Below are positions 29,910 through 63,829 of a DNA stretch of 64,000 bases, in pieces. The notes under the pieces were generated by a model, which was given only the letters and a program-made list of their open reading frames with translations, was not told the DNA's origin and ran no database searches. The stretch comes from Brevundimonas sp. (GTDB lineage Bacteria > Pseudomonadota > Alphaproteobacteria > Caulobacterales > Caulobacteraceae), in assembly GCF_013912065.1 (NCBI RefSeq), contig NZ_JACESA010000004.1, forward strand, positions 62,001-126,000. Direction: 5' to 3'. Position numbers and translations under genes: made by a program. The number at the start of each line of letters is the position of its first letter. The first letter of the stretch is position 1.

Positions 29910-31321
29910 CAGGCGGCCTCTTCTTCGCCCTTGGCCAGGCGAGAGTGTTTGGACGACCACAGCAGATAGATGGCCACGCCGATCAGATTCCAGATCAGGA
30001 AACCGACCTGGGTCACGCCCTTGAGGCTGAAGAAGAAGACGATGCAGCCGATGATGCTGATCGCGCCGACGACGGGCCACAACGGCGCCTTGAACACCCG
30101 CTTGCGGCCGGGTTCGCGGATCCGCAGCACGATCAGACACAGGCCCACCGAACAGAAGGCCGCCAGAGTGCCGGCGTTGGCGAGCGACGCCAGTTCGTCC
30201 AGCGGCAGCAGGCCGGCCAGGATCGCGACCACCACCGCGGTGAAGACCGTAACCACCGCCGGCACGCCGCGCGACGACACCTTGGCCAGACGGCGCGGCA
30301 ACAGGCCGTCGCGGGCCATGCCCAGGAAGATGCGGCTCTGGCCGAACAGAAAGGCCAGCAGCACGGTCGGCAGGGCGATCACCGCAGCAGCAGCGATCCA
30401 CTGGGCCGCCGTCACCTGCCCCATCTGGCGCAGGATCAGGGCCAGGGGCTCGGGGCTGTCCGCGAAATCGGCGACCGGCCGGGCGCCGATCGCGGCGGCG
30501 GCGACGACCAGATAGAGGGCCGTGCAGATCAGCATCGAACCGACGATGCCGATGGCCAGGTCGCGCTCAGGCTTCTTGGTCTCTTCCGCCGCCGTCGAGA
30601 TCGCGTCGAAGCCGTAGAAGGCGAAAAAGATGATAGCCGCCGCCGCCATGACCCCCGTCTGGACAAAGGGCGCGCCGAAGCCGTTGGGCATGAAAGGCGT
30701 GAAATGCTCGGGTTTGAAAGCCGGCAGAGCGATGGCGACGAAGACGACCAGAGCGGCGATCTTGATCACGACAAGCACGGCGTTCAGCGTGGCGCTCTCC
30801 CGGGTGCCCAGCAGCAGCAGGCCGGTGACCACGCCGATGATGGCCACGGCCGGCAGATTGACGACGCCCCCCGCATGCGGCCCAGCGACCAGGGCCACCG
30901 GCAGATCGACGCCCAGGCCGCTCAGGAAACCGACGGCGTAGCCGGACCAACCCACCGCCACGGCGCTGACAACCAGCGAGTATTCAAGGATCAGGCTCCA
31001 GCCCACGACCCAGGCGATCCCTTCGCCCAGCACGGCATACGAATAGGTATAGGCGCTGCCCGCCGCCGGCATCATCGTCGACAGTTCGGCATAGGCCAGG
31101 GCGGCGCAGGCGCAGACCAGACCCGCTAGGCCGAAACTGATCAGAACCGCAGGCCCCGCAAGACCCGCCCCGACGCCGATCAGCGTCAGTATGCCCGTGC
31201 CGACGATGGCGCCCACGCCCAGCGCCAGCAGGTGCGGCCAGCTCAATGTCGGCTTCAACCGCGGCCCGTCGTGCGGCGCCAGCATGGCGTCGATCGAACG
31301 ACGCCGTTTCCAAAAGGCCAT
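29909..31321 (-). CDS. APC family amino acid permease (cationic amino acid type)
   Basis: 470 residues with about 12-14 transmembrane helices, beginning LLALGVGAIVGTGILTLIGV, the GxGxGIL consensus of APC carriers. Another conserved stretch is FFAFYGFDAISTAAEETKKP. The start at 31321 (MAFWKRRRSIDAML) has GGGGGAG ten bases upstream. It resembles the CAT/YfnA group; substrate is uncertain. It is the last core gene before tRNA-Lys and the island. Confidence 0.87.
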   Translation of the reverse strand: MAFWKRRRSIDAMLAPHDGPRLKPTLSWPHLLALGVGAIVGTGILTLIGVGAGLAGPAVLISFGLAGLVCACAALAYAELSTMMPAAGSAYTYSYAVLGEGIAWVVGWSLILEYSLVVSAVAVGWSGYAVGFLSGLGVDLPVALVAGPHAGGVVNLPAVAIIGVVTGLLLLGTRESATLNAVLVVIKIAALVVFVAIALPAFKPEHFTPFMPNGFGAPFVQTGVMAAAAIIFFAFYGFDAISTAAEETKKPERDLAIGIVGSMLICTALYLVVAAAAIGARPVADFADSPEPLALILRQMGQVTAAQWIAAAAVIALPTVLLAFLFGQSRIFLGMARDGLLPRRLAKVSSRGVPAVVTVFTAVVVAILAGLLPLDELASLANAGTLAAFCSVGLCLIVLRIREPGRKRVFKAPLWPVVGAISIIGCIVFFFSLKGVTQVGFLIWNLIGVAIYLLWSSKHSRLAKGEEEAA

Positions 31322-31478
31322 GAAGCTTGCTCCCCCGCCGCTTTGCGCGGCTGATTCCGTCCGGACCATAGACCGTCAAAGAAAGTTTGCGAAAGCGCTT
31401 GCCAACCCCCGAACGGGTGGGTAGTAGGAGCGCCCTTCGGCAGGGCGGTCGCCCGCGCCGGAATGAAGACGATCGGTC

Positions 31479-31554
<76 letters not shown>

Positions 31555-31598
31555 TCGTCCCTTTGATTTCTTTGAAGATTTAGAAAAACCCCTCGGGG

Positions 31599-31640
31599 CC
31601 ACCGTTTCTCTGAATCAGAAAAACGGTGAGAAAAACGGTG
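31599..31640. repeat. Short direct and inverted repeats next to the attachment tRNA
   Basis: GAAAAACGGTG occurs twice in tandem (31618-31628, 31630-31640), and an inverted relative CCACCGTTTCTC lies at 31599-31610. Position 45-86 bases after the tRNA end suits arm-type recombinase sites of an attL; a hairpin role is also possible. Confidence 0.5.
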
Positions 31641-31717
31641 GGGATCGCAGCCAGCTTTCTGCCGCTTCGTCACTACGGTTGCCAGTGTCGGGCATAAGCA
31701 GAATCTATCGTCCGTTT

Positions 31718-31729
31718 GGGACATGTCCC
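31718..31729. promoter_or_regulatory. Perfect 12-bp palindrome upstream of the alpA-like gene
   Basis: GGGACATGTCCC, followed two bases later by another GGGAC. It lies 88 bases before the AlpA-like start, a likely operator for a regulator of the island. Confidence 0.45.
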
Positions 31730-31817
31730 GGGGACGTACGACCGTGCCATTGCGGGTATCCGCTCATTCGGGGCCGCCGGAGAATCGTCTGCTTTTCGAG
31801 CGGAAAGGACAGGAGCG

Positions 31818-32024
31818 ATGACCGACGAGAGTTTCCCGCCGAGGCGTTTCCTGCGGACACCGGAAGCAGGCCGATATCTGGGGCTGTCCGGCCGCACGCT
31901 GGAGAAGCACCGGAGCTGCGGCACCGGACCGGTCTATCGAAAACTCGGCGGGCGGGTTGTCTACGCGATCAGCGACCTGTCCGAGTGGGCGGACACCGAC
32001 GTCAGAACACCCACGCCGATCTGA
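31818..32024 (+). CDS. AlpA/excisionase-like helix-turn-helix regulator
   Basis: 68 residues. FLRTPEAGRYLGLSGRTLEK is a MerR/Xis-type winged helix-turn-helix, followed by GPVYRKLGGRVVYAISDLSEW, the wing that is typical of AlpA-family and excisionase proteins. AGGACAGGAG precedes the ATG. Such proteins often control the integrase or excision of tRNA-integrated islands. It stands 94 bases before the large defense gene, which it might also regulate. Confidence 0.8.
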   Translation: MTDESFPPRRFLRTPEAGRYLGLSGRTLEKHRSCGTGPVYRKLGGRVVYAISDLSEWADTDVRTPTPI

Positions 32025-32118
32025 CCTCACGGGTCGGTTCCCAGGTTCCCCGAAGCTGCACGTTGCGGCTGATCGTGCGGCTCCATACATGCTCCGGTTC
32101 GGAAAACAGGGCTGGGCC

Positions 32119-35100
32119 ATGAACGAGAAGACGACGAGCGCGCCGGCGGGCCTGGCCGGATACGACTATCAGGTCGACATCTCCATCTACCTCGCGCTTG
32201 ATCTCATGCTGGTCCAGAAGCGGCTCGACGAAATCACGCTCGAGCCGGCCAACCATGAAGACCTCGCCGCCGATCTGAAGGACGAAACCCAGGTCTCGGC
32301 CGCAACCAGCCTCTCCATCGGGGGATACCCCCTCGTCGTCCAGGCCAAGCTGCGCAACGGGGAGCCTTGGTCCGATACCGATATCGAAACGCTTCTCACG
32401 AAGGGCAAGGCGCGGAAGTCCCCCAACACGCTCCTGACGGAGAACACGGCCCTCCGATATCTGCTGATCACCAGTGCTGCCACAAAGGGGGTCGCGCGTG
32501 ATCTGCGGACCGGTGCGGTCGCGGCGAACTGGCCGGCCAAGCTGCCGAAGGGCATTGGATCAAGGCTGCCAGGCCTGGACGGACGGGTTGCGGTGCTCGA
32601 CGGCCTCGATGAGACGAAACTCGATGGCCAGATCCGCGATGTTCTGCTGACGACCTGCAAGGTCCCGCTGCCCAACATCGTCGACTGCATCAAGGAACTG
32701 CGGACCGTCGCCCTTGAACACATGCGGAACGGACCCAGCGTCTGGACCCGAAACGCCGTGGAAAAGACCATCACCGCCTTCGGGGGCTATCTGGCGACGG
32801 CCCCAGAGGTCGGACTGTTCGTCAAGCCGACGAACTGGGGCGACTTGCAGAACCAGCTGGCGACCCGCCACGGCGTCATCATCAGCGGCAGCTCGGGCAC
32901 CGGGAAAACGATGGCCGCTGAAGTTCTGCTCGATGAACTTCGCAGCCGACCGGACGGTGCGTTCAAGGTGATCCGCGTGACGGCCGGACCCGAACAGGTC
33001 TGGAACTCGAAAGAGACGGGCCGGGTCGTCTTCATGATCGAGGATCCGTGGGGCAAGTACCGCTATCATCCTGAGCAAGGCGTGTGGAACCGCGACCTCG
33101 ATCGCATGCTGAACGGGGCGCACGCCGACCGTCAGTTCATCGTCACCACCCGATCCGATGTCTTTAAGGAGAGTGGCGAGCGGCTGGCCGCCCATTGGTT
33201 CGTCTCACTGGAGACCCGGCATTATGGCCAACGCGAGCGCTTCCGTTTGTTCGACAACCAGGTCAGGCTGCTGCCCGAGGTCTTGAAGGCCCCGGTCGAC
33301 GCGCATCGCGACGTGGTCCTGAAGCGGCTCGTGAGTCCGTACGAGATCCAGAAATTCTTTGACGGGCTCGCAGGCGAAATGTCGCCTGACGCGAACCTGC
33401 CGACCTTCATTCACCGCTGCATAGACCTTGCCCACTACGACGCGATCGAGAACACGATCGTCGACCAGGTCGAAGCGCGGGACGACGCATTTCCGGCGAT
33501 CGCCGTGTGGGGCCTGCTGAAAGCGCTACCGCGTCTGTCCTGGGAGGTGGTCCCTCGACTCGCCGAAGCCATCGGCGAAAAGGACCAAGAGCTCGAGGAC
33601 AAGATCGTTCCGCTGATCCGCTTCATGGCCGCGGGGCGAAACCTGCGTCAGCCGAACGACGTGCTCAGCTACTACCACCCGCGCGTCGAGGCCGGGCTGG
33701 AGCGCATCCTTAAGGGCCACAGCGGACGTGCGGCACGCCTTCTGGGAAGCATGGTTGATGTGCTTGTCGCCATCGATGGTGACAGCGACGCGGACTGGGG
33801 CCGCGAGGCGGCCGCACGCCTCGTCCAGGGCGCCAGGAACGATCGCGTCAAGGTGACCGTGAGCCCCGACTCCCAGGCCACGCTCGACGCGTTCGTCCGG
33901 CGTCGTCTTATCACCCCGTCCGACACGCTTGAGGCCGATCTCAAGCTGGCGGCCGATGTCGGTTCGCCTGACGACACGATCACGCTTTTCGCGGGCTGGG
34001 TCGGCGCTCGCGGCGACACCTTCGGTACGCTGCAAAACTGGTTGGAAACGCCGATCAGCCCGACCGACGCGGCGCGCACGGCCGCCGATCCGGATGTGGC
34101 GATCGTCGCGGCGCGCTTCGTCCGGGAGACGCTCGCGCGCACAAACGACCACTTCCCCGATGATTTCGCGGCCCGCATCGCGGTAATGGCCGGAGCCCAG
34201 ACCGATGCATTCCGCGACGCAGCCTTGCGCATGGTCGGCTTTGGGTACGACTTCAACGCTCGTGCGGTCGGGACGGGGGCGCTGGTCGACTTCGCCGGGT
34301 TCGAGCCGGTGGTGGACGCCGCGATCGCGGTGAACATCAGCCTGCGCGATGACGACGACACGGTTTGGCTGGAAATCCTCAACGGCGAGCACAGCGAGGG
34401 TTATGCCGAACATCTCGCCGACATGCATCATGACGACGGCGACACGGCGGACAGCTTCATCCAGCTCTATGTCGCGGGTTTGCGCCTGCGGTCCGGCTGG
34501 AGCGCCATCGTCGCCCGTACCCAATCGCCGGAGTTGCTCTGGGGCTGGATCCAGGTCCTGGGCGCCGACGGCGTCGTGCCGCAACCGGGCGAAATGGTGG
34601 GGATCGCCGACGCCGCGCGCGGGCATCGCCACGACGCGCGTTTCTGGGATCTGGCGCGCAAGAAGTGGTCGGCCGACCTGGGGTCCCGCCTTGAAGACTA
34701 CCTGAAGACGCCCGGGCTGGCCGAGGACACGCGCCACGCCGTCCTGAAGACCATGATCGTGCATCAACCGTCGAACGGCCGGGCGTGGCTCCAGGCCATG
34801 GCCGCGGCCGGCGACCTTCAGGGAGTCCTGCGGGCGATGACGGATCTGCGCGCACTGGCGAACGGCTACGACCTGAAATCGGAGGTGGCCGTGTTCGCGG
34901 CGGACGCCCCGGGCCATGTCGAGCCCTACGGAGCGTTGGCGCAGGCGGTCCTCGATGAAGCGTCCTACGCGCTGTCGCTGGCGGAAGTCGCTCAGCTGGA
35001 AGCGCTCGACGCCGCCGCAAGTCCCGATCTGCAGCTGGCGCGGGCGCGTCTCCTTGCGGCGGCCGGGCGTCCGGTCCGGACCTATGTCGAAAGCCTGCTC

Positions 35101-36084
35101 GCGACCGCCGGTGATGAAAGTGAGGATATTCAGCGCGCCAGGGCCGCGATTGCGATCGCAATCGCGCAGGGTCTGACGGACATTGTCGAGGGCGGGCTGA
35201 AACACCGGTTCGCCGCCGTGCGCCGCGACGCGCTGCGAACGATCGCCGACGGTCTCGCCGCACCCCTGCCCGCCCACATCCTGGCGCTGGCGCATGACAA
35301 GGGGAGCGGGGTGCGTGAGGCGCTTGTCGAGATCCTCAAGACCAAGCCTGACGCCAGCCACCAACCGACGCTCATCGGTCTGACCTCGGACACCTGGGCC
35401 CGTGCGGAAATCTACTACGGCGACGAGGCGAGCTACCCCATCGCGACCGGGGCGGCGGAGCTGCTCCGCGACCAGGCTCCGCTTTTCGCCGATGCCATCG
35501 ACACCCTGATGGCGCGGGCTGCTGCCACCAGCGACCCCGATCTGCGCAACGCACTCCTGCTGGCCGTGGCCAAGCAGGGCGACATCGCGGGACGCGACCG
35601 ACTGGCGGACCTGGCGCTTGAGGTCGGACGTCCCGGCCTGCACGCGGCCGCCGCCGAGGCCCTCTTCCTCGCCGGCGACCGGTCGGCTGTCCGCGCCTCC
35701 CGGTTCGAGCCGCATCTCCGCGCCGGGCGAGCGGCGCCGGTCGTCATCTCCATGGCGCTGGCGGTCGGTGCGACAGGGGAAAAGGCCGCCACCCTGACGC
35801 TCGCCCGCACCCTGCGCATGGATCCGGATCGATCCGCCCTTGTGGTCCCGCTGCTGTTTGGCGCGATCTGGGGTGAGGAGGGACTGTACGATGCGATCGC
35901 TGCGCTCCTGCCTCAGGATATCCGAGACGGTCTCACGGGCGCCTTCAGCGACCAGGGCCTCGCCCCGCGAACGCTCATGGACGCATTGGGCGACTTCAGA
36001 ATTCGCGAGGCGGTGATGAAACGCCTGCGCCAATTCTTCGAGCCCAAGCCGAAGGATATCCCCCCGCCGCGCCAACCTGCCTAG
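32119..36084 (+). CDS. Avs-like antiviral STAND NTPase with N-terminal Cap4-type nuclease
   Basis: 1321 residues in one frame. Residues 1-130 look like a PD-(D/E)XK dsDNA endonuclease of the DUF4297/Cap4 kind: YDYQ (15-18), acidic residues E42/D48 (ITLEPANHEDL), Q75-A-K77 (LVVQAKLR). A STAND-type ATPase follows: Walker A GSSGTGKT (257-264), Walker B VVFMIEDPWG (303-312) with the DP-(W/F)-G ending of nSTAND3, and sensor IVTTRSDVF (341-349). From about 400 to the end are helical HEAT-like repeats, the likely target sensor. By analogy with Avs proteins, a phage protein would bind the repeats, drive oligomerisation and activate DNA cleavage. ATG 32119 was chosen; the frame opens at 31957 but overlaps alpA. 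Confidence 0.75.
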   Translation: MNEKTTSAPAGLAGYDYQVDISIYLALDLMLVQKRLDEITLEPANHEDLAADLKDETQVSAATSLSIGGYPLVVQAKLRNGEPWSDTDIETLLTKGKARKSPNTLLTENTALRYLLITSAATKGVARDLRTGAVAANWPAKLPKGIGSRLPGLDGRVAVLDGLDETKLDGQIRDVLLTTCKVPLPNIVDCIKELRTVALEHMRNGPSVWTRNAVEKTITAFGGYLATAPEVGLFVKPTNWGDLQNQLATRHGVIISGSSGTGKTMAAEVLLDELRSRPDGAFKVIRVTAGPEQVWNSKETGRVVFMIEDPWGKYRYHPEQGVWNRDLDRMLNGAHADRQFIVTTRSDVFKESGERLAAHWFVSLETRHYGQRERFRLFDNQVRLLPEVLKAPVDAHRDVVLKRLVSPYEIQKFFDGLAGEMSPDANLPTFIHRCIDLAHYDAIENTIVDQVEARDDAFPAIAVWGLLKALPRLSWEVVPRLAEAIGEKDQELEDKIVPLIRFMAAGRNLRQPNDVLSYYHPRVEAGLERILKGHSGRAARLLGSMVDVLVAIDGDSDADWGREAAARLVQGARNDRVKVTVSPDSQATLDAFVRRRLITPSDTLEADLKLAADVGSPDDTITLFAGWVGARGDTFGTLQNWLETPISPTDAARTAADPDVAIVAARFVRETLARTNDHFPDDFAARIAVMAGAQTDAFRDAALRMVGFGYDFNARAVGTGALVDFAGFEPVVDAAIAVNISLRDDDDTVWLEILNGEHSEGYAEHLADMHHDDGDTADSFIQLYVAGLRLRSGWSAIVARTQSPELLWGWIQVLGADGVVPQPGEMVGIADAARGHRHDARFWDLARKKWSADLGSRLEDYLKTPGLAEDTRHAVLKTMIVHQPSNGRAWLQAMAAAGDLQGVLRAMTDLRALANGYDLKSEVAVFAADAPGHVEPYGALAQAVLDEASYALSLAEVAQLEALDAAASPDLQLARARLLAAAGRPVRTYVESLLATAGDESEDIQRARAAIAIAIAQGLTDIVEGGLKHRFAAVRRDALRTIADGLAAPLPAHILALAHDKGSGVREALVEILKTKPDASHQPTLIGLTSDTWARAEIYYGDEASYPIATGAAELLRDQAPLFADAIDTLMARAAATSDPDLRNALLLAVAKQGDIAGRDRLADLALEVGRPGLHAAAAEALFLAGDRSAVRASRFEPHLRAGRAAPVVISMALAVGATGEKAATLTLARTLRMDPDRSALVVPLLFGAIWGEEGLYDAIAALLPQDIRDGLTGAFSDQGLAPRTLMDALGDFRIREAVMKRLRQFFEPKPKDIPPPRQPA

Positions 36085-36160
36085 CGGACGACGCCGTGGG
36101 GCGCGCCGCACGTTTCGGTACGAGGACGCCGCGGACGCAAGCGGCCCTGGGCGCGGGCGT

Positions 36161-36850
36161 TCAGGCCAGGGCGAAATCCACGGCCGCCATCGCGTGGATA
36201 TCCGTGCTGTCGAAGGCCGGGACCGGACATCCGTCGACGTTCAGGATCATGCCGATCTCGGTGCAACCGAAGATCAGACTGTCGGCGCCGTCCGCCTTCG
36301 CCCGTTCCACAAGACCCAGGAGCGCCTGACGTGAGCTGTCCCGAACCACGCCGAGGCAGAGTTCGTTGAAGATAATGTCATGGGTCAGCCCCCGCCCATC
36401 GGCGTCGGGGGTCATGACCTCGATGCCGTGCGTCTCCATGCGGGCGGGATAGAAGCCATTCTCCATCGTGTAGCGCGTCGCCAGCAGAAGCGGCTTTCGG
36501 CAACCCGCCGCCTTCAGGCGGTCCGCAGTCACATCGACGATATGAAGGAAGGGGACAGTCACCGCCGCCTCCACGGCAGGGGCGACCAGATGCATCGTGA
36601 CTGCGCACATCATGACGCAATCCACTCCGGCGCGCTCGAGGCCTTGGGCGGCGTTGGCGAGATAGCGCCCCGCGTCATCCCAACGGTCGGACTTCTGCAT
36701 GTCGACGATGGTCTGGAAATCGACCGAATGAAGGATGAGGTCCGCAGAATGCAGCCCCCCGAGCCGCGCCTTCACCCCCTCGTTGATCTTGCGATAGTAC
36801 AGCGCCGAGCCCTCGAAGCTCATGCCGCCGATCAAGCCGATTCTACGCAT
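36161..36850 (-). CDS. Aspartate/glutamate racemase family protein
   Basis: 229 residues of the Asp/Glu racemase fold, opening MRRIGLIGGMSFEGSALYYR, as in the YgeA/EcL-DER group. The second catalytic cysteine is in LIFGCTEIGMIL. The first catalytic motif, usually CNTxH, reads MMCAVTMHLVA: the asparagine is replaced by valine while Thr and His remain, as partly seen in broad-specificity racemases. It lies between the defense gene and the metal genes, with no metabolic partner, and may be transcribed with the cytochrome gene upstream. Confidence 0.82.
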   Translation of the reverse strand: MRRIGLIGGMSFEGSALYYRKINEGVKARLGGLHSADLILHSVDFQTIVDMQKSDRWDDAGRYLANAAQGLERAGVDCVMMCAVTMHLVAPAVEAAVTVPFLHIVDVTADRLKAAGCRKPLLLATRYTMENGFYPARMETHGIEVMTPDADGRGLTHDIIFNELCLGVVRDSSRQALLGLVERAKADGADSLIFGCTEIGMILNVDGCPVPAFDSTDIHAMAAVDFALA

Positions 36851-38489: not shown

Positions 38490-38762
38490 ATGGCTCACAT
38501 CGCCGCCGACAAACCCAAGCTGCTCGCGCGGGTCCGCCGTATCAACGGTCAGGTCAGCGCGCTTGAGCGCGCGATCAATGAGGATGTCGATTGCATCGCC
38601 GTCCTCCAGCAGGCCGCCGCCGTTCGCGGCGCCCTCGGCGGTCTCGTCGAGGCGCTGATCCTTCAGCATCTCGAGCACCACGTGGCCGCACCTCATCTTG
38701 ACGAAGCCGAGCGCCGCAAGGGCGCTGACGAGCTGATATCCATCATCGGACGCTATAAATGA
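38490..38762 (+). CDS. dmeR: RcnR/DmeR-type nickel/cobalt-sensing repressor (CsoR family)
   Basis: 90 residues, all-helical CsoR/RcnR fold. Counting from Met1, His3, Cys35, His60 and His64 are all present, the full RcnR ligand set for Ni(II)/Co(II); copper CsoR (Cys-His-Cys) and formaldehyde FrmR patterns fit less well. DNA-contact helix begins KPKLLARVRRINGQVSALER. AAGGA precedes the ATG, and the end overlaps dmeF (ATGA). Metal-free protein should bind TACT-N7-AGTA and release on Ni/Co binding. Confidence 0.88.
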   Translation: MAHIAADKPKLLARVRRINGQVSALERAINEDVDCIAVLQQAAAVRGALGGLVEALILQHLEHHVAAPHLDEAERRKGADELISIIGRYK

Positions 38763-39706
38763 CCTTCCCGCCAGCCCCGGCAGCTCACGACCATGTCTTC
38801 CTGGCCGCGAACCACGACGAGAACGCCCGTCGCACCTTGATCGTGGTCATCCTGACGGCCGTGATGATGGTCGGCGAAATCGTCGCCGGGGTGCTGACGG
38901 GGTCCATGGCGCTGCTCGCCGACGGCATCCACATGCTGACCCATGCCGGAGCGTTGGGCGTCGCGGCTCTTGCCTATGCCTATGCGCGGCGTCACGCCCA
39001 TGATCGTCGCTACAGCTTCGGAACCGGCAAGGTGGGCGATCTGGCGGGCTTCGCTTCGGCGCTCGTCCTCGGCCTGTTCGCCATCGGCATCGGCGTGGAA
39101 TCGGTCCGCCGCCTGTTCGAGCCGACGTCGGTTCTCTTCGGCGAGGCCGCGATCGTCGCGGTCATCGGCCTGGCGGTGAATGTGGTGAGCGCCCTGCTTC
39201 TTTCGGGCGGCCACCACCACGGTCACCATCACGGCGACCACGACCATCACCACCACGACCATGGCCATGGCCATGGCGGCGACAACAACCTGCGCTCCGC
39301 CTATCTCCACGTCCTGGCCGACGCCCTGACCTCGGTGCTCGCCATCATCGCCCTGCTCTCGGGCCGCTACCTCGGGTGGACCTGGCTGGACCCGATCATG
39401 GGCCTGGTGGGCGCCGCGGTGATCGCCAAATGGTCGTGGGGCCTCATGCGCGATACCGCCGCCGTCCTGCTGGACCGGACGGACGAGCATGTCGCCGAGG
39501 AAACGCGCGAAGCGATCGAGACGCCGGGCGACGCGGCGATCCGCGACCTGCACATCTGGCGCATCGGTCCCGACGCCCACGCAGCGATCATCAGCGTCTC
39601 CGCAACGGGCGTGACCCTGGACGCGCTGCGCGCGCGGCTCGTCCCCGTGCATGAACTGAAGCATGTCACGATCGAGATCGAGACCGCCGAGGCGCTCGCC
39701 GCCTGA
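38759..39706 (+). CDS. dmeF: Cation diffusion facilitator DmeF (Co/Ni efflux)
   Basis: 315 residues, six transmembrane helices. It opens with AAHDHVFLAANHDENARRT, the DmeF N-terminus. The transport sites are ADGIHMLTHAGALG in helix 2 and LHVLADALTSVLA in helix 5. Between helices 4 and 5 is a long His/Asp loop with more than a dozen His (around residues 155-180). A C-terminal cytoplasmic domain follows. It exports Co2+/Ni2+ using the proton gradient, and its coupling to the sensor gene is the known dmeRF pair. Confidence 0.9.
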   Translation: MTFPPAPAAHDHVFLAANHDENARRTLIVVILTAVMMVGEIVAGVLTGSMALLADGIHMLTHAGALGVAALAYAYARRHAHDRRYSFGTGKVGDLAGFASALVLGLFAIGIGVESVRRLFEPTSVLFGEAAIVAVIGLAVNVVSALLLSGGHHHGHHHGDHDHHHHDHGHGHGGDNNLRSAYLHVLADALTSVLAIIALLSGRYLGWTWLDPIMGLVGAAVIAKWSWGLMRDTAAVLLDRTDEHVAEETREAIETPGDAAIRDLHIWRIGPDAHAAIISVSATGVTLDALRARLVPVHELKHVTIEIETAEALAA

Positions 39707-39750
39707 GGTGCGACACTTTCCGTGTTGAAGGAATCATCGCCTTCCCGATA

Positions 39751-40212
39751 GTGGGGGGGGAGTTCGGGAACAACCACTTGCTGCGTCTTCTGCGCCAGAT
39801 CTGCATCGGCCTGACCGTGACCTTGATGGTCGCGGTGCAGGGCTTTGCCTTGCGCGACGCCCAGCACCGGCTCGAACATGCGGTGCAGTTTCCCGGCGTC
39901 GACTATGTGGATGTGGCTGTCATCGCCTCCGGGCCCGACCACGATCACGACCATGGGCACAGCCACGATGAAGGCGGTCCGGTCGCGGACTTCGAGACCG
40001 CTTTCGACGGAGCGACCGACGGGGACGAGATGCCGGTCGTACCGCATCATCACCACTCCGGCGGGGGCGAAATCCACCTGGCGCTCGCTGGCCCGCCCTA
40101 CCCGCCCTCTCTGCATAAGACAGACGGAGGCGCGCTGACCCCGGCGCGCGACGCCCTGCTTGCGGGCACACGCCCGGAAAGACCCCTCGACCCTCCCAAA
40201 CAGCGCGCCTGA
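39751..40212 (+). CDS. Membrane-anchored His-rich protein
   Basis: About 153 residues. One N-terminal hydrophobic segment (QICIGLTVTLMVAVQGFAL) then a mostly periplasmic region with His clusters GPDHDHDHGHSHDEGG and VVPHHHHSGGGEIH, and a Pro-rich tail. It probably binds metal on its way to the RND pump next door. The start is uncertain: GTG 39751 is used here, TTG 39778 after GGGGGGAG is the alternative. It resembles no family I can name. Confidence 0.6.
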   Translation: MGGEFGNNHLLRLLRQICIGLTVTLMVAVQGFALRDAQHRLEHAVQFPGVDYVDVAVIASGPDHDHDHGHSHDEGGPVADFETAFDGATDGDEMPVVPHHHHSGGGEIHLALAGPPYPPSLHKTDGGALTPARDALLAGTRPERPLDPPKQRA

Positions 40213-40271
40213 TCACCTGAAAGTTGATCTTGCGCGGCTGCGGCCGCGCGCGCCCTGTTTGGAGAATTTCC

Positions 40272-41587
40272 TTGAACCACCCTGCATCCGGCCTCGCCGG
40301 ACGGCGGGTGCGCGCCACAGCTGCGTCTGTGCTCGCACTCGCCCTGGGGGCGACGCTCGCCCCTGCATCGGCGTACGCCCAGACGTCGCCGACCTCCCCG
40401 TCTGTCGCCCAACCCGCGACGCTCACCTTGCGCGACGCCCTGTCCCTCGCCGCCCAGGCCGATCCTGCCCGGCCGGGTCTCGCGGCGCGGCAACGCGCGG
40501 CGGAAGCCGGTGTTCGCCAGGCTGACGTCCGGCCCAATCCGACGCTCGGCCTCATGGTCGAGAACCTCCCGACGCTCGGCGGCGGCGACATCCTGAACCG
40601 TACGGAGACCACGCTCACCTACGAGCAACGCCTCGAGCGTGGCGGCGACCGGCCGGCCCGGACGGCCCTGGCTCGGGCGGAAGGCGACCTCGTCGTCGCC
40701 GAAGCCGAGGTCGCCCTGCTCGATCGCCTCGAACAGGTTCAGCGCGCCTGGGCCGAAGCCCTCGCGGCCGAAGCTGCGGTGGAGATCGCCCGCGAGCGTC
40801 TGGACCTTGCCGAGGCCTTCTCTACGGAGGTCCTGCGTCGGGTCGGCGCCGCACGCGACCCGCTGTTCGCAGGCGCCCGGGCCGAGGCCGAACTGGCCCA
40901 GGCCCAGATCGATTTCGACCAGGCCGAGATCACCGCACGGCTGACGCGCGCGAACCTGAGCCTGTTCTGGGGCGGTCGATCCGACTTCACCCTGGGCTCA
41001 AGCCTGTTCGAAGACACTTCCGCCTCAAGGCTGGAGGCCGGACCGGTGGCCCCGGTCGATCTCGCCGTCTTCACCGCACGGCGCCTCATCGCCGACGCCC
41101 AGGTGCGCGTCGAGGAAGCGCGCGCCGTCGCCGATCCGACGGTACAGGTCGGCGTCCGCCACATCTGGGACAATGAGGTCGCCCTGGTGTTCGGCGGCTC
41201 GATCCCCTTGCAGCGCTATGATCGCAATCAGGGCGCTATCGACCGCGCTCGCGCCGAAGGGGTCGCCGCCCAGGCGGACAGCCGGGCGTTCGCGGCCGAG
41301 CGGGAGCGGGAGATTCTCCGTCTCCAGGTGCAGCTCGCCGCGCGGGCGAGCGAGGTCCGACGGATCTCCGAAGAGACCATCCCCCAGGCCGAGCGCGCCG
41401 TGCGGCTGGTCCGGGACGGCTTCGCGAGAGGGGGCTTCACCTACAACGACGTGATGTCCGCCCAGACCGCCCTGCTGCAGGCGCGAGCCCGGCGCGTCTC
41501 GGTCCTGCAAGAATTTCACAACGACCGCGCGCGCCTCGAGCGCCTGACGGGCGCACACGCCGATCTCGTCGGTCTGGAGATCCAACC

Positions 41588-41591
<4 letters not shown>
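40272..41591 (+). CDS. Outer membrane factor of RND metal efflux system (CzcC/NccC-like)
   Basis: 439 residues: signal peptide (ASVLALALGATLAPASAYAQ) then the TolC-fold repeats, e.g. VRPNPTLGLMVENLPTLGGG and LGGSI-type strands, with long helices of the tunnel. The start is a TTG with GGAGA six bases upstream; an earlier TTG at 40224 lacks a site. It forms the outer membrane channel for the pump encoded by the next two genes, and its end overlaps the adaptor gene by four bases. Confidence 0.88.
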
Positions 41592-46052
<4,461 letters not shown>

Positions 46053-46053
<1 letters not shown>

Positions 46054-47222
46054 TGGGCCCCGCTCTTCCCCGGAAGAGCGGGAGCGGCGCCGACGCGGTC
46101 CCCAACGCGTCGGCGCCGGCCTTCCCGAGCCGGCTGCCGGCCCTGACCGGCATCCGGTTCTGGCTCGCCCTCGGCGTCGTGCTCTTCCACTACCAGCTGA
46201 ACATGGTCCCCGAGGGCGGGACGGGCATCGCGCTGATCGAACGCGCGCGCCTCGCGGTCGATTTCTTCTTCATCCTGTCGGGTTTCATCCTGGCCCACGT
46301 CTACGGGCGTCAGGTGCGGAGCGGGACCTACAATCACAAGCGCTTCCTCATCGCGCGGCTGGCCCGGATCTATCCGGCCCACCTCGCCATGATGGTCGTG
46401 ATGGCGATCATCGTCCTCGTCGCGATCGCGCTGGGGCAGCCGTTCGCGAATGACAGCTACTCCCTGCCGGGCTTCCTGTCCGCGCTGTTCCTGACCCACG
46501 CCTGGTTCCCGGCCACCGTCCCCAACGAGTGGAACGGGCCGTCGTGGTCGCTTTCCGCTGAATGGGCCGCCTATCTGGCCTTCCCCGTGTTCGCCTACAT
46601 CGGACTGAAGGCGGGCCGCCGGCCCTGGGTGACGATCGCTCTGTCCGTCGGCCTGTTCCTGTTGATCGACGGCGTTTACCGCTGGGTCTTCAAGGATCAG
46701 CTGACCCACGCCGAACTGGTGCTCGGGGTGCTGAGGATCATTCCCGAGTTTCTGTTCGGGATCGGCCTCTACCAGCTCGGCAGCCGCATCCGGTGCGGTC
46801 GGCGGACCGCGACGCTCGCCGCGATCGGCTCGCTCGCCGCGCTGCTTTGCCTGATGGCGATCAGCGCCGACGAGCGGTTGATCGTGGCGATGTCGGGCGC
46901 CGTCATTCTCGGCCTCGCCCTGTGGGATCGGGCCGAGGACGACAGCGTCTTCAACCACCCGCTGCTGCTGGAGGCCGGCGAAGCCTCCTACGCCCTGTAC
47001 CTCGTCCATCTGCCGCTTCTGATCATCTGGAAGAACGGCATGGCGATGCTGGGCGGCATCGACAGCACCTACCGGATGTCCGCGTCCGAAGCGGCTCTTC
47101 TGCTGGCGCTCACTGTCGCCTGCGCCTTCGCGCTGCACGCCTTCTGGGAGCGTCCGGCGCGCGCCCTGGTCCGCAGCCTTTTCCTTACCCCCTCCCCCAA
47201 ACCTGAGAGAGGTCAATCATGA
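46053..47222 (+). CDS. Acyltransferase family 3 membrane protein
   Basis: 389 residues with about ten transmembrane helices. LPALTGIRFWLALGVVLFHY holds the catalytic His motif of the OafA/YrhL family, and FFFILSGFILAHVYGR and GPSWSLSAEWAAYLAFPVFA are also typical. It acylates a sugar or lipid at the inner membrane. The start shares one base with the pump stop (TGATG), and the end overlaps the HupE gene, so it is firmly part of the metal operon, which is unusual. Confidence 0.87.
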
Positions 47223-47950
47223 CGTCTACCCTGCGCCGCGACTCCTGGTCGTGGCTCCGATCCCCCTGGACGGCGCTGCTTCTCGTGCTCGGCTTCATGC
47301 TGCTCGACGGCGCCTTCAGCCAGGCCCTGGCCCACGGCGTCGCCGAGGGCGACAAGGGCTACATCCAGGAGACCTCCGGCTTCCTGTTCTGGCCCTTCGT
47401 CTATCTGGGGGCCAAGCACATGGTCACCGGCTACGACCACCTGCTGTTCCTCTTCGGGGTGATCTTCTTCCTCTACAAGATGAAGGACATCTCGATCTAT
47501 GTGACGCTGTTCGCCATCGGCCACTCGTCCACGCTTCTGCTGGGCGTCCTGACCGACATCAGTGTGTCCAGCTACATCGTGGACGCCATCATCGGTCTGT
47601 CGGTCGTCTACAAGGCGCTCGACAACATGGGCGGCTTCCAGCGCTGGTTCGGCTTCCAGCCCTCCACCAAGGCAGCGACCCTGATCTTCGGCCTGTTCCA
47701 CGGCTTCGGTCTGGCGACCAAGCTGCAGGACTTCCAGATGTCGCCTGACGGCCTGCTCGGCAATCTGATCGCCTTCAACATCGGGGTGGAGGCCGGACAG
47801 CTTCTGGCCCTCGGCGGCATCCTCATCCTGATGGGCTTCTGGCGCCGGTCGAACAGCTTCTGGAAGCACGCCTACCTGACCAACGCCGTGGTGATGTGCC
47901 TCGGCTTCATTCTGACGGGCTACCAGCTCGTCGGCTTCTTCGTCATGTGA
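47219..47950 (+). CDS. HupE/UreJ-type nickel/cobalt permease-like protein
   Basis: 243 residues, six or seven transmembrane helices. AKHMVTGYDHLLFLFGVIFF, TLFAIGHSSTLLLGV and GLFHGFGLATKL are the HupE/UreJ signature helices with His residues that bind metal. Family members move Ni2+ or Co2+. Its place after an exporter suggests either export help or controlled uptake; direction cannot be read from the sequence. Confidence 0.87.
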   Translation: MTSTLRRDSWSWLRSPWTALLLVLGFMLLDGAFSQALAHGVAEGDKGYIQETSGFLFWPFVYLGAKHMVTGYDHLLFLFGVIFFLYKMKDISIYVTLFAIGHSSTLLLGVLTDISVSSYIVDAIIGLSVVYKALDNMGGFQRWFGFQPSTKAATLIFGLFHGFGLATKLQDFQMSPDGLLGNLIAFNIGVEAGQLLALGGILILMGFWRRSNSFWKHAYLTNAVVMCLGFILTGYQLVGFFVM

Positions 47951-47963
47951 TCGGAGCCCCTCC

Positions 47964-48635
47964 ATGTACAACGCAAACCGACCCACCCGCGACCAGCTGC
48001 CGACCACGGCGGAGCTTCTGAAATCCACCGGCATCGCCGCCGTCGTCGCCGGGGCCATTCTGGTCACCGTCGTGCTGCCGGCCGAATATGGCGTCGACCC
48101 GACCCGCATCGGCTCGGTCTTTGGCCTGACCGAAATGGGTCAGCTGAAACGCCAGCTCGCCCTCGAGGCCGAAGCGGATGCTGCGGCGGACGCCGCCGCC
48201 GGTCAGACCTCGGGCGTCGCCGCCGCCCCGCCCCTGCCCGCCGCCCCGGCCCCGGCCCCGGCGGGAACGCCAGCCGCGCCGATCGCTCAGCCCGTCACGG
48301 CGGATGCCGCAGCGGCCGGCGTCCGCTCGGACGAAACCGTGATCGAATTGGCCCCCAATCAGGGCGCCGAGCTGAAGATGGATATGGCCGAGGGCGCCAA
48401 GGTCCGCTTCACCTGGACCAGCAACGGCGGGGCCGTGAACTACGACACCCACGCCGACCGTCCGGGCCTTCGCTACCACGGCTATGGCAAGGGAACGGAC
48501 CTGCAGCAGTCGGGTGAACTGACGGCCGCCTTCACCGGCAGCCACGGCTGGTTCTGGCGCAACCGCACGGGCCAGACGGTGACCATCACCGTCCGGACGG
48601 AAGGCGCCTATACCGAGATCAAGCGGGTGGTCTGA
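47964..48635 (+). CDS. Transmembrane anchor protein of metal island
   Basis: 223 residues. One N-terminal transmembrane helix (STGIAAVVAGAILVTVVLPA), an Ala/Pro-rich linker (about 75-115), and a C-terminal beta domain (EGAKVRFTWTSNGGAVNYDT; GSHGWFWRNRTGQTVTITVR). It is a periplasmic protein held by its N-terminus and commonly found with HupE-like genes in such islands. Function is not established. Confidence 0.7.
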   Translation: MYNANRPTRDQLPTTAELLKSTGIAAVVAGAILVTVVLPAEYGVDPTRIGSVFGLTEMGQLKRQLALEAEADAAADAAAGQTSGVAAAPPLPAAPAPAPAGTPAAPIAQPVTADAAAAGVRSDETVIELAPNQGAELKMDMAEGAKVRFTWTSNGGAVNYDTHADRPGLRYHGYGKGTDLQQSGELTAAFTGSHGWFWRNRTGQTVTITVRTEGAYTEIKRVV

Positions 48636-48672
48636 CCCGTTTGACGATCAGCCGCCGCCAGTCGGCTGGTCA

Positions 48673-48712
48673 GATGGCGGGGCGCGGAACCCCCCTGCAG
48701 CGCCCCGCCATC
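48673..48712. terminator. Long hairpin between convergent genes
   Basis: GATGGCGGGGCGC (48673-48685) pairs perfectly with GCGCCCCGCCATC (48700-48712) over 13 bp, loop 14 bases. It ends the 10-kb plus-strand operon and overlaps the nreB stop codon. No U-run follows, so termination by itself is not certain. Confidence 0.55.
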
Positions 48713-50045
48713 ACTTATCGTCCCGATCCGGCCAACGCGGATGCTCATCGTCGATCACGACGGGATGGGCGTGCCACCGCGAACGGGAATGCGGACGGTC
48801 TCCCTCGGCCAGATGGGGATGATCCGCATCCAGCTCGTCATGAGCGTGGGCCAGATTGGCCGGGTCGTACTTCGGCCAGACGACGAGGGCGAGAACCACG
48901 CCCACCGCGCAGAGCGCCGCCAGAACCAGGAAGGCCGCCCGCGGATCCGCTTCGGCGGAGACCAGGCCCGCGACGGGGTAGGCGATCAACCAGCAGGCAT
49001 GGGACAGGGCGAACTGGGCGGCGAACAGGGAGGGCCGGTCCGCACCCGTCGAAGAGCGCCGCAGCGCACGGCCCGCGGGAGTGATCGTCAGCGAATAGCC
49101 GAACCCCATCACGATCCACAGGCCGATGAGGATCGCATAGGTCGTCGCCGCGAAGGCGCCCAGCAGCAGCACTCCTGTCATGACCGCCGCGCCGGCGATC
49201 ATCGCGGTCCGGTCGGTCACCCGTTCAAGCACCTTCGGGAGCGCCAGAGCCGCGGTCATCGACCCGCCCCCGAACGCCGCCAAGGCCCAGGCCGTCGCCT
49301 GTTGCGACAGGCCGAAGCTGCTCTGGACGAGAACCACCGTATTCACGAACACCATGGCCCCGCCGGCCGCCGTGGCGAGGCCGACCGCCAGGAGCCCTCT
49401 CAGTCTCGGGGTCAGGGCGAACAACCGGACGCCGCCGGTCAGCCGCCGCATGAACGGCAGAGGCGCCGCCCCCGAAGCGCGTGGCAGCACGGCCCGGATC
49501 ACGAAGGCTGCGGAGAGCGCGAACCCGAGCGCGGTGCCGAGGAACAGATTGTTGTAGCTGATGAAGGCCAGCAGCAGAGCCGCCAGAACGGGGCTCGCCA
49601 CGCTTTCCAGATCCGCCGCGAGACGCGAGAGCGACAGCGCCTTGGTATACTCCCCCTCGTCTTCCAGCAGGTCGGGGATCATCGCCTGGAAGGCCGGAGT
49701 GAAGGCGGCCGAGGCCGTGTAGAGCACCGCCATCAGCGCATACACCTGCCAGGCCGCGCCGACGAACGGCAGGGTGATCGCCACGCCCGCCCTGACCACA
49801 TCCAGCGAGACCAGCAGGGTCTTGCGCGGCAGTCGGGCCGCGATTGCGCTCGCGAAGGGCGCTACGGCGATATAGGCGACCATCTTGATCGACAGCGCCG
49901 CCCCGAGGATTTCCCCGGCGCTGGCGCCGGCCAGATCGTGCGCCAGCAGGCCGAGCGCGACGGTCGCCATGCCCGTCCCCAGGAGCGCCGAGACCTGGGC
50001 GATGAAGAGGCGGCGGTAGGCCGGATTGGACAAGGGAGAGAACAT
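48711..50045 (-). CDS. nreB: MFS metal exporter NreB (nickel resistance)
   Basis: 444 residues, 12 transmembrane helices of the MFS, opening MFSPLSNPAYRRLFIAQVSA. The C-terminal tail after the last helix is His/Asp-rich (WPKYDPANLAHAHDELDADH; RSRWHAHPVVIDDEHPRWPD), the hallmark of NreB nickel exporters. The ATG at 50045 was chosen; the open frame extends to 50231 but runs through the operator. The TACT-N7-AGTA site at 50067-50081 is 21 bases upstream. Confidence 0.85.
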   Translation of the reverse strand: MFSPLSNPAYRRLFIAQVSALLGTGMATVALGLLAHDLAGASAGEILGAALSIKMVAYIAVAPFASAIAARLPRKTLLVSLDVVRAGVAITLPFVGAAWQVYALMAVLYTASAAFTPAFQAMIPDLLEDEGEYTKALSLSRLAADLESVASPVLAALLLAFISYNNLFLGTALGFALSAAFVIRAVLPRASGAAPLPFMRRLTGGVRLFALTPRLRGLLAVGLATAAGGAMVFVNTVVLVQSSFGLSQQATAWALAAFGGGSMTAALALPKVLERVTDRTAMIAGAAVMTGVLLLGAFAATTYAILIGLWIVMGFGYSLTITPAGRALRRSSTGADRPSLFAAQFALSHACWLIAYPVAGLVSAEADPRAAFLVLAALCAVGVVLALVVWPKYDPANLAHAHDELDADHPHLAEGDRPHSRSRWHAHPVVIDDEHPRWPDRDDK

Positions 50046-50065
50046 CGTGGGGTCGCCTCGATCAT

Positions 50066-50082
50066 ATACTCCGGGAGAGTAC
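50066..50082 (-). promoter_or_regulatory. RcnR-type operator, copy 4 (nreB promoter)
   Basis: TACT-CCGGGAG-AGTA (50067-50081), arms extending to ATACTC/GAGTAC. It sits just before nreB and matches the three sites at the b561, His-rich and dmeRF promoters. Confidence 0.65.
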
Positions 50083-50162
50083 CGGACATGTGGTCCGCTT
50101 TCCGCGTCATTTCCAGCCGTCGAGAGCGGCCGGGTCGATATTTCGCTGGAGCGCCGACGCGT

Positions 50163-50987: not shown

Positions 50988-50990
50988 GGT

Positions 50991-61778: not shown

Positions 61779-62010
61779 TCACCCCGGATCGATCACCACG
61801 GTGCATGCCGATTCCGCCAGCCTCGCCTTCGAGCAACTCACGCTTCTGGTCCGCGAGTCCGAGGGCGGGCGCGACCTGCCGCGCGACGACATCCGCACCA
61901 TGCTGCACCTGATGGTCGATGTGGTGGTGCAGATGAAGAAGACCAACGGCCGGTTCCTGATGACGGAGGTGTGGCATGACCCGCTTCGCAAGCGCCGCGC
62001 CGGGAACTAG
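61756..62010 (+). pseudogene. virB11/trbB remnant, 5' end lost
   Basis: 84 residues read FLRNVNSGHPGSITTVHADS, then RDDIRTMLHLMVDVVVQMKK and NGRFLMTEVWHDP, the His-box and C-terminal part of the VirB11 secretion ATPase. About 250 N-terminal residues with the Walker A site are missing. The end overlaps virD4 by 35 bases, the normal arrangement of an intact virB11-virD4 pair, so only the 5' end was lost. A GTG at 61801 could still start a 69-residue peptide. Confidence 0.75.
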
Positions 62011-63829
62011 GGCGGCCCTGGTCGCGGTGGGTCTGACCGCGGCGCTCGCCCTCGTCACGACCGGCGCGCTGCTCATTGCCCTCATCGGTCTGGGCCGGTT
62101 CTCCGGAGAGATCGATCCCGTCCGCGTCCCGGCCTGGTTCTACTATTACCGCCACGATCCCGAGGTGCGGCGCTGGCTCGGCGTCGGGGCGGGCGTGATG
62201 GGTCTGATCCTTCTCATCCTCATGACCGCGATCGCTCTGGGTATGCGCAGACCGCTCCATGGCGCGGCCCGCTGGTCGACCGGCGCGGAGCAGCGTCGTC
62301 ATCATTTGCGGGACCGGACCGGCATCCTGCTGGGCCAGACCGCCGACGGCCTTCTGGTCGCGGGCGGCCCTGTCCATGTGATGCTCTACGCCCCGACGCG
62401 GACGGGCAAGGGCGTGGGCGTCGTGATCCCGAACCTCCTGACCTGGCCCAGTTCGGTCGTCGTCCTCGACATCAAGCGGGAGAATTTCGACGCCACGGCC
62501 GGCTTTCGAAAAGAGGCGGGACAGCAGGTGCATCTGTTCAACCCGCTCGCCGCGGACGGTCGCACGGCGCGCTTCAACCCGCTCCAGCACATTGATCGCA
62601 CCGCCCCGATCGTCGTTCTGGATGAACTCCAGCGCATCGCAGGCATGTTGTTTCCGGCGCACAGCCATGCCGACCCCTTCTGGTCCGAAGCCGCCCGCAC
62701 CGGCTTCATCGGGGTGGGCGCCTATGTCGCCGCGACGCCGGACCTCCCATTCACGCTCGGTGAAATCTACCGTCAGCTCACCGAAGGGGACCCCCGCGAG
62801 CGTTTCCCCAAACTACTGGAGGAGCGACGCCGGATCGGCGATCCGGTTCCGGCCGGCGCCGCCTCCGCCCTGACCGACTTCTGCAGTTCGGGCGAGAACA
62901 CCTTCGCCTCCATCCGCCAGTCGATCACCACCCGGATGGGTCTCTGGCTCAATCCCCTGGTGGACGCGGCGACGTCCGCGAGCGACTTCGACCTCCGCGA
63001 TATCCGCAACGGCCGTCTGTCGCTCTATCTGGCGGCCTCGCCCGAGAACATGGACCGGATCGTCCCGCTCTACGCCCTCCTGTTCCAGCAACTCGTCGAT
63101 CTCAACTGCCGCACCCTGCCGGCCGCCGACACGCCGCCGACGCTGGTCTTGCTGGACGAGTTCGCCCGGCTCGGTCGCGCCCCGGTGCTGGCCCACGCCT
63201 TCGCCTGGGTCGCCGGCTATGGCCTGCGTCTGCTTCCCGTCATCCAGAGCCCGTCCCAGCTACGCGCCCTGTATGGACCGGACATCACCGAGGACATCCT
63301 CACCAACTGCGGTCTCGAGATCGTCTTCGCGCCAAAGGAGCTGAAGGTGGCCCAGGAGTTGAGCGAACGCCTCGGCTATTACACCTATCGCGCTCGCAGC
63401 CGCAGCCGCCCGATCGGTCTCGGCCAGGGCCGCCGCAGTCTGACGGACTCCGACCAGAGGCGCGCCCTCATGCTTCCGCAGGAGCTGATGCAGTTGTCGG
63501 AAAAGGCCCTGATCGTCCTGAAGGCGGGCCTTTCGCCGACGCGCGGCCGCAAGCTCGTCTACTACCGCGACCGGCGCTTCACGGATCGACTGCGCCCCCC
63601 GCCACCGCCGCCGGCGACGGCGCCCCGTACGCCCACACCGCCGCCGCCGGAGCCCCTGCCCCTGACAGAGGTGGAGACCGACATGGATTTCGACAGCATC
63701 GTCCGCCGCTTCACGGCTGAAGGCCTGACGCCCCCGGCGCCGGGTGCGACGGAGGCGGAGGTGCAGGCCTGGCTCCAGCGCGTCGTCACAGCCCCCGTCG
63801 GCGCTCCGTCCCGGGAGCGGCTGCCATGA
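61976..63829 (+). CDS. virD4: Type IV coupling protein VirD4/TraG
   Basis: 617 residues. Two N-terminal transmembrane helices (about 12-38 and 62-85), Walker A YAPTRTGKGVGVVIPNLL, Walker B TLVLLDEFARLGRAPVL, and the FxxLNP-like LFNPLAADGRTARFNPLQ region typical of VirD4/TraG. The tail is Pro-rich (RPPPPPPATAPRTPTPPPPE). It is the ATPase that hands the relaxase-DNA complex to the type IV secretion channel. GGAGG lies six bases before the ATG. It appears intact. Confidence 0.93.
   Translation: MTRFASAAPGTRAALVAVGLTAALALVTTGALLIALIGLGRFSGEIDPVRVPAWFYYYRHDPEVRRWLGVGAGVMGLILLILMTAIALGMRRPLHGAARWSTGAEQRRHHLRDRTGILLGQTADGLLVAGGPVHVMLYAPTRTGKGVGVVIPNLLTWPSSVVVLDIKRENFDATAGFRKEAGQQVHLFNPLAADGRTARFNPLQHIDRTAPIVVLDELQRIAGMLFPAHSHADPFWSEAARTGFIGVGAYVAATPDLPFTLGEIYRQLTEGDPRERFPKLLEERRRIGDPVPAGAASALTDFCSSGENTFASIRQSITTRMGLWLNPLVDAATSASDFDLRDIRNGRLSLYLAASPENMDRIVPLYALLFQQLVDLNCRTLPAADTPPTLVLLDEFARLGRAPVLAHAFAWVAGYGLRLLPVIQSPSQLRALYGPDITEDILTNCGLEIVFAPKELKVAQELSERLGYYTYRARSRSRPIGLGQGRRSLTDSDQRRALMLPQELMQLSEKALIVLKAGLSPTRGRKLVYYRDRRFTDRLRPPPPPPATAPRTPTPPPPEPLPLTEVETDMDFDSIVRRFTAEGLTPPAPGATEAEVQAWLQRVVTAPVGAPSRERLP

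Follow-up and report, generated by a model that had tools for sequence, protein, structure and literature searches.

What does the large gene beside a tRNA gene in this Brevundimonas sp. genome encode: an immune protein, a regulator of the mobile DNA that carries it, or something else? The window analysed here is a stretch of 64,000 nucleotides (C34:62001-126000 of a 3.54-Mb draft genome), and the gene lies at 32119..36084 on the forward strand. It is an intact open reading frame of 1321 codons and a stop codon with no internal stop, as a first-pass annotation of the stretch had described it. The open frame extends upstream to a TTG at 31957, which would give 1375 amino acids (aa); in our alignment L003-L005, which are close homologues, have N-termini that agree with a start at the ATG at 32119. 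The product of the gene is very probably an immune sensor in one piece, and we consider it likely that this single protein, carried by a mobile element, works like the Avs proteins. We read it this way because the nSTAND3 nucleoside triphosphatase (NTPase) is present throughout the aligned family, the N-terminal domain is related to a nuclease, the gene is under purifying selection and patchily distributed on mobile DNA, defence genes lie beside homologues, and a Lamassu system is carried in the same element. The gene and its predicted parts are:

32119..36084, forward strand: predicted nuclease-nSTAND3-repeat protein, 1321 aa (open reading frame, Pfam, PADLOC, alignment, selection analysis)
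32119..32658, forward strand: LmuA/Cap4-like nuclease domain (predicted), about residues 1-180 (PADLOC LmuA model, profile-profile comparison)
32242..32349, forward strand: putative catalytic motif E42 ... D48 ... Q75-x-K77 (invariant 17/17 and 20/20)
32818..33189, forward strand: nSTAND3 NTPase, residues 234-357 (Pfam PF20720)
32887..32910, forward strand: Walker A, residues 257-264, GSSGTGKT (sequence, conservation)
33025..33054, forward strand: Walker B region, residues 303-312, VVFMIEDPWG (D309, P310 and G312 invariant 17/17)
33799..36048, forward strand: C-terminal region, residues 561-1310, presumed sensor (omega 0.107-0.208)
34996..35823, forward strand: HEAT-like part, about residues 960-1235 (alphaRep profile match, weak self-similarity)

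The central NTPase matched the Pfam nSTAND3 model over residues 234-357 (E 1.9e-15, 57.3 bits against a cut-off of 27.2). The same model matched 17/17 members of the aligned family, made up of the window protein and 16 full-length homologues with identities as low as 21%. The Pfam search of the window protein listed matches at E <=10, HMMER filters discarding most matches above 0.1, and the Pfam and PADLOC scans of the 17 members took matches at E up to 0.1. The central nSTAND3-like ATPase and the Walker A and DPWG Walker B motifs proposed at first pass are therefore borne out by a match above the curated cut-off and by residues G257, S259, G260, G262, K263, D309, P310 and G312, which are invariant in all 17 members. 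NCBIfam gave weak P-loop matches only, one of them to the family DS41_1 antiphage (E 0.11).

The N-terminal domain is likely an LmuA/Cap4-related nuclease, a prediction supported by its profile similarity to LmuA and by the invariance of E42, D48, Q75 and K77 down to 21% identity. These four residues are the same in 17/17 aligned members and in 20/20 sequences when three broken copies are added, and these 20 sequences made up the N-terminal profile. The PADLOC LmuA model PDLC03848 matched the window protein weakly (residues 6-116, E 0.004) and 12/17 members overall, with a best E of 2e-5 (match positions are known for the window protein alone). Compared by hhalign with a profile of 13 LmuA proteins, which were picked for open length among 34 places found by a PDLC03848 search of 398 genomes, the N-terminal profile gave E 3.7e-5 and a probability of 71%, and its first 165 residues alone gave E 1.2e-4 and 55%. 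None of the 60 controls (59 column shuffles and one reversal) reached the score of 43.3, and the most probable control scored 16.7. Against 44 single proteins (three candidates and 41 negatives), hhalign placed L116, a protein resembling PF14130, first with a probability of 11.6%. A search of the Protein Data Bank (PDB) with the N-terminal profile returned two irrelevant matches with E above 1, and one with the single sequence returned no match at E <=1. A Pfam Cap4 profile search of 289 genomes gave two matches. The frame that encodes L116 (G390:C4, near 1044253) is open for 1267 aa, contains a stretch resembling a P-loop and matches Cap4 weakly (5.1e-5); beside it lies an open reading frame that by eye resembles a CRISPR Cas7-type protein.

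The C-terminal region is the presumed sensor. The first pass had described about 900 residues of HEAT-like repeats, and this description holds for the last third: profile positions 974-1249 (about residues 960-1235) match solved HEAT-like alphaRep proteins in the PDB profile search (E 1.4e-10), and this part has weak internal self-similarity (best off-diagonal E 9.8e-5). Pfam HEAT_2 matched 5/17 members, the window protein not among them. Residues 561-960 showed no similarity to any nameable family in sequence and profile searches, as the earlier remark that the repeats belong to no nameable family would have it, and they contain invariant D590, W641, R789, W810 and E825. Repeats in the DNA of 31300-36700 are short pairs that we judged to be chance.

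Selection on the gene was estimated as omega from the window protein and L003-L005 (four sequences, six pairs). Overall omega was 0.132, with pairs ranging from 0.11 to 0.15, and none of the six pairs gave a sign of positive selection. The gene is under purifying selection, which is strongest in the nuclease (mean omega 0.080) and NTPase (0.092) parts; residues 401-560 (0.105) and the linker at 181-230 (0.124) follow. Blocks of the repeat region had means of 0.107-0.208, the highest being residues 851-970 (0.208). Mean pairwise identity among the 17 members was 0.39 in the nuclease, 0.38 in the NTPase and 0.20 in residues 851-970. This pattern indicates that the protein is in use and that the presumed sensor is on the whole its fastest-changing part.

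Avs2-Avs4 carry nuclease effectors. Their overall plan, nuclease, STAND and repeat sensor in one protein, is that of the window protein, and the Avs (AVAST) architecture of effector, STAND and repeats proposed at first pass is upheld as a plan by family searches and conservation, with the effector recognised by profile only and the repeats over one third only. According to passages in PMC12724215, Avs2 binds a viral target through its C-terminal sensor, its ATPase forms oligomers with ATP, and the effector at the N-terminus becomes active; Avs1-3 sense the large terminase and Avs4 the portal. PaAvs5 is described in parts of PMC12931631 as an nSTAND3 protein with a SIR2 effector that is triggered by a jumbo-phage protein; substitutions in Walker A, Walker B or SIR2, or loss of C-terminal helices, abolish immunity, and a conserved arginine partly matters (PMC12931631). 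Avs5 proteins (SIR2-STAND; PaAvs5 and EfAvs5) thus have the same class of NTPase as the window protein, but their effector is SIR2, whereas the window protein has an LmuA/Cap4-like domain and no SIR2 match in Pfam or PADLOC. The studied PaAvs5 proteins have TPR/Sel1/PPR repeats after the NTPase, whereas the region in the window protein is much longer and partly HEAT-like. The Walker B region also differs, reading E-D-P-W-G in the window protein and holding a single acidic residue in PaAvs5-1. With Lamassu LmuA the window protein has in common the related N-terminal domain and its motif, but LmuA is paired with the SMC-like LmuB, whereas here the domain is fused to a STAND NTPase with no LmuB or LmuC adjacent. 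PADLOC PDC-S73 matched 15/17 members (best 2e-15); in the window protein the match covers residues 233-350 only (profile 174-291 of 752, E 0.0036), so that the NTPase is common to both but not the architecture. No Avs chain was among the PDB sequence matches listed (60 of 72 and 60 of 93). We file the protein under none of the Avs types, Avs5 or Lamassu, because Avs models were unmatched, SIR2 is absent and no LmuB is adjacent. Searches among open-licence papers gave no description of a nuclease-nSTAND3-HEAT defence protein. The general design is thus known, and the combination of these parts on mobile DNA is one for which we found no description.

On this basis we propose how the protein would act. 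At rest, the repeats would keep it inactive. During infection they would bind a protein made by the invader, whereupon the nSTAND3 ATPase would bind ATP and oligomerise. Once brought together by oligomerisation, the nuclease domains would cleave DNA and so end the infection, a response that would probably kill the cell. The NTPase is of the Avs5 class, the effector is nuclease-like, and the sensor is longer and in part HEAT-like; we infer the same cycle as in the Avs proteins, with DNA cutting as its output. A further proposal, which we make tentatively and at somewhat less than even chances, is that the protein represents an unnamed Avs-like type (LmuA-type nuclease, nSTAND3, HEAT-like sensor) on plasmids and islands of alpha-, beta- and gammaproteobacteria, with a sensor that would recognise an invader protein other than the published Avs ligands considered here (large terminase, portal and JADA).

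The distribution of the gene is patchy. Among 61 genomes (its own and 60 relatives, 36 of them congeners), the full gene was found in its own genome only, and one congener matched over the NTPase alone. Matches were found in 5/200 genomes of an order sample (its own, the NTPase-only congener and three near full-length homologues at 28-35% identity), in 2/385 of a class sample (its own and a fragment) and in 3/398 of a phylum sample (its own, the same fragment and one near full-length homologue at 34%). Versions 75-80% identical to it are present on three contigs, from Agrobacterium arsenijevicii, Ancylobacter tetraedralis and a Kangiellaceae metagenome-assembled genome. Sixteen plasmid records matched, five of them over >=80%, and eight of the 16 are typed as conjugative. 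A phage collection gave no match at E 1e-3. At least one viral contig carries a homologue (L023), with its frame broken near the end; three further scans of viral contigs found no relative, and a search with L023 as query returned the same contig. In a tree of the 17 sequences (10/14 inner branches well supported, L019 a long branch), the same-family homologue clusters with Janthinobacterium and Rhizobium, and the window protein with the three 75-80% contigs. The patchy distribution among congeners, the high identity in distant taxa and the groupings in the tree indicate that the gene moves horizontally. Broken copies of the family occur in 3/12 examined plasmid loci, on plasmids of Agrobacterium, Rhizobium and Sphingomonas (L018, L021 and L022). 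The L018 copy consists of two open reading frames with insertion-sequence genes between them, and the L021 and L022 copies stop after about 340 and 310 residues, inside the NTPase.

Defence genes often accompany the homologues. Fifteen neighbourhoods were inspected (L003, L004, L005, L011, L012, L013 and L015-L023), leaving out L014 (no annotation), the plasmid matches H9, H11, H14 and H16 and short genome-search loci; the PADLOC scan took chosen neighbours, six proteins of L003-L005 and ten in a second scan. In eight of the 15, a defence gene, known or candidate, lies no more than 8 kb away, so the defence setting assumed at first pass is found among homologues. In L003 a SIR2-HerA pair lies about 140 bp upstream of the homologue (3.6e-80 and 1.2e-171), and a PDC-M30 pair lies nearby in L004. 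L012 and L015 adjoin Gabija (GajA 8.7e-292 and 0; GajB 3.2e-260 and 7.4e-261), L017 a class II Argonaute (4.2e-298), L018 a CBASS cyclase and effector (1e-201 and 1.5e-78) and L013 PDC-S28 (7.6e-260); L011 has an AbiEii toxin by annotation. The Ancylobacter locus (L005:9998-16306) holds a relaxase and a recombinase, with a tRNA-Arg gene downstream of the homologue and the recombinase gene between them, and this copy may lie at the edge of a tRNA-linked element.

The features that delimit and characterise the element carrying the nSTAND3 gene are:

31479..31554, forward strand: tRNA-Lys(CTT), predicted integration site (ARAGORN; same tRNA with islands and a related integrase gene in three congeners)
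31510..31559, forward strand: attL, 50-bp direct repeat (exact attR at C34:165999-166048, window coordinate 103999-104048, outside the window)
31818..32024, forward strand: HTH_17 (AlpA-type) small DNA-binding protein (Pfam HTH_17, 4.8e-6)
61976..63829, forward strand: VirD4/TraG-type coupling protein of the same element (Pfam T4SS-DNA_transf, 5.8e-94)
L101:9819-13422, about 72818-76421 in window coordinates, outside the window: Lamassu (LmuA, LmuC, LmuB; PADLOC)

The repeat is the 3' end of the tRNA-Lys gene, and its two copies lie 72,489 bp apart, which gives a predicted integrative element of 72.5 kb with the nSTAND3 gene as its first large cargo gene. The element was delimited by the direct repeat, an integrase-type gene and the HTH_17 gene; an empty site was not seen in the comparison. 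The integrase-type gene adjoins attR; Pfam recognised its arm domain (2.2e-7) but no catalytic domain, and genes 73-77% identical to it in DNA adjoin the corresponding repeat in congeners G018, G965 and G967. The HTH_17 gene lies about 260 bp from the end of the tRNA-Lys gene; its product is barely at the Pfam cut-off (27.2 against 27.0 bits) and is a probable excisionase or regulator of the element. The AlpA regulator at a tRNA site named at first pass is thus present as an HTH_17 gene, but no Pfam model named AlpA matched it. HTH_17 homologues lie beside the same tRNA-Lys gene in G012, G018, G019, G965 and G967. In at least seven congeners (L089-L096 and L104-L106) a second copy of the 3' end of tRNA-Lys(CTT) lies about 1.3 to 92 kb downstream, with varied cargo; this gene is a recurrent integration site for such elements. 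The stretch that holds the permease-like gene upstream and tRNA-Lys is matched, in whole or in part, in all 61 genomes of the genus sample. To the right of attR the sequence has no counterpart in the 44 loci compared at tRNA-Lys; it matches other places in 30/61 genomes, including its own, and this flank may reflect a second insertion or rearrangement.

Besides the nSTAND3 gene, the element carries a complete Lamassu (LmuA 1.7e-78, LmuC 7.1e-46 and LmuB 4.7e-135 in PADLOC) about 37 kb away. Its LmuA and LmuC also match ABC-3C parts in Pfam, and neighbouring genes have first residues that we take to resemble imuA/imuB and dnaE2. A DUF3800 protein (1.3e-11) and a HEPN/nucleotidyltransferase protein (HEPN 2.5e-6; PDC-S09 6.6e-8) are encoded at L101:16779-19503, also in the element. 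The nSTAND3 gene is adjoined by an open reading frame of 229 aa (36161-36850) that resembles a racemase by eye; it has matches in 20/37 genomes (its own included), the best congener at 46% with no close orthologue, and is taken as island cargo. Several efflux-type open reading frames, by eye two very long RND-like pumps and cation transporters, lie within 38759-57328 and are probable metal resistance cargo. The classic defense-island position proposed at first pass is better described as a tRNA-Lys integrative element: the cargo within the window looks by eye rich in metal-efflux genes, and the other clear defence system of the element, the Lamassu, lies at a distance. A second defence cluster, with an integrase-like open reading frame (by eye), is found elsewhere in the genome (L147, G000:C1:322000-341000). 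It encodes a 953-aa protein with an LmuA-like N-terminus (2.1e-6), AAA_22 and SEC-C, and a second Lamassu (LmuB 2.8e-121, LmuC 4.4e-13, LmuA match at C1:336410) with another DUF3800-like open reading frame (by eye) near it.

Several observations weigh against an Avs-like nuclease sensor. PADLOC-DB 2.0.0 contains Avs models, and none matched the window protein (E <=10) or the 17 members (E <=0.1). Under default settings the LmuA profile alignment reported residues 180-238 alone as aligned; when low-confidence columns were allowed the alignment spanned the domain with the catalytic motif, and only under that setting does the E42/D48 stretch fall near LmuA LE-DD and Q75-x-K77 near LmuA (Q/L)xK. 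The Pfam Cap4 model PF14130 gave no match to the window protein in the search at E <=10, and in the hhalign comparison with single sequences neither L115, a PF14130 protein (probability 0.2%), nor the LmuA of the element itself (0.46%) did better than negatives. An AlphaFold model of residues 1-560 (five-row alignment) had a mean predicted local distance difference test (pLDDT) score of 46.6 and was usable for the NTPase only; residues 1-188 fell below 50, so that no confident N-terminal fold, PD-(D/E)xK-like or other, was obtained. Fold comparison of this model listed no nuclease, and was informative for residues 233-443 only, the model being too poor elsewhere. The Cap4/DUF4297-like nuclease of the first pass therefore stands as a homology to LmuA by profile-profile comparison with invariant residues, but not as a Cap4 match or a confident fold. 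In 7/15 neighbourhoods (L005, L016 and L019-L023) no known or candidate defence system could be named; other genes there encode a toxin-antitoxin (L020), HipA (L016) and a PLD-helicase (L023). As a control, 20-kb stretches on the opposite side of plasmids L011, L012, L013, L015, L017 and L018 held no named defence system (0/6); a Fic protein is present in one, and in another an exonuclease close to a small AAA gene. The control is weak, since it used annotation only, which would have missed both Gabija pairs. Computed support covers domains, conservation, selection, mobility and defence neighbours; ligand binding, oligomerisation, DNA cleavage and cell fate are inferred.

Three other explanations were considered. 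The same machine could protect the element or plasmid that carries it from rivals, either plasmids or conjugative elements, by sensing a conjugation or replication protein. The many homologues on plasmids and integrative elements, with half of the plasmid records typed as conjugative, fit this idea, as do the Argonaute and Lamassu neighbours, which act against both phages and plasmids. Other neighbours, such as CBASS, Gabija and SIR2-HerA, counter mainly phages. Where the ligand of an Avs protein is known, it is a phage protein in the accounts given in parts of PMC12724215 and PMC12931631. On balance we regard a plasmid guard as rather unlikely. It is less probable still that the N-terminal domain is a degenerate or other effector (DNA-binding, adaptor or RNA-cutting), so that killing would not proceed through DNA cleavage. 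No confident fold was obtained, no Pfam family of any kind matched the N-terminus of the window protein and comparison of single sequences shows a weak relation to LmuA, but the invariance of the four motif residues across the family and a profile-profile score reached by no control argue for a nuclease.

That the protein is a STAND-type transcriptional or maintenance regulator of the element, MalT-like rather than immune, seems very improbable. The gene directly follows the HTH_17 gene at attL, and most work on bacterial STAND proteins has treated them as transcription regulators, as passages of PMC7159879 put it. But none of 16 homologue loci has an HTH_17 relative (tblastn E <=1), and no tRNA-Lys was found in 15 scanned loci, though a tRNA-Arg lies 2.3 kb downstream in L005 and a tRNA-Met 6.4 kb downstream in L011. 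The five congener islands with an HTH_17 gene at tRNA-Lys have other genes and no nSTAND3 relative in their first 12 kb or so, and no DNA-binding output domain of the protein was matched in Pfam.

Avs proteins have a design that resembles the nucleotide-binding leucine-rich-repeat (NLR) immune sensors of animals and plants. If the Avs-like sensor proposed here is right, a Lamassu-type nuclease and the NTPase class of Avs5 have been joined to a different sensor, which would mean that effectors and sensors are swapped around one switch. A scan with the PADLOC library would probably miss such proteins, because no model matched the whole architecture. The gene offers a single-gene system in which a new trigger could be sought, and its interest lies in the ligand of the presumed sensor.

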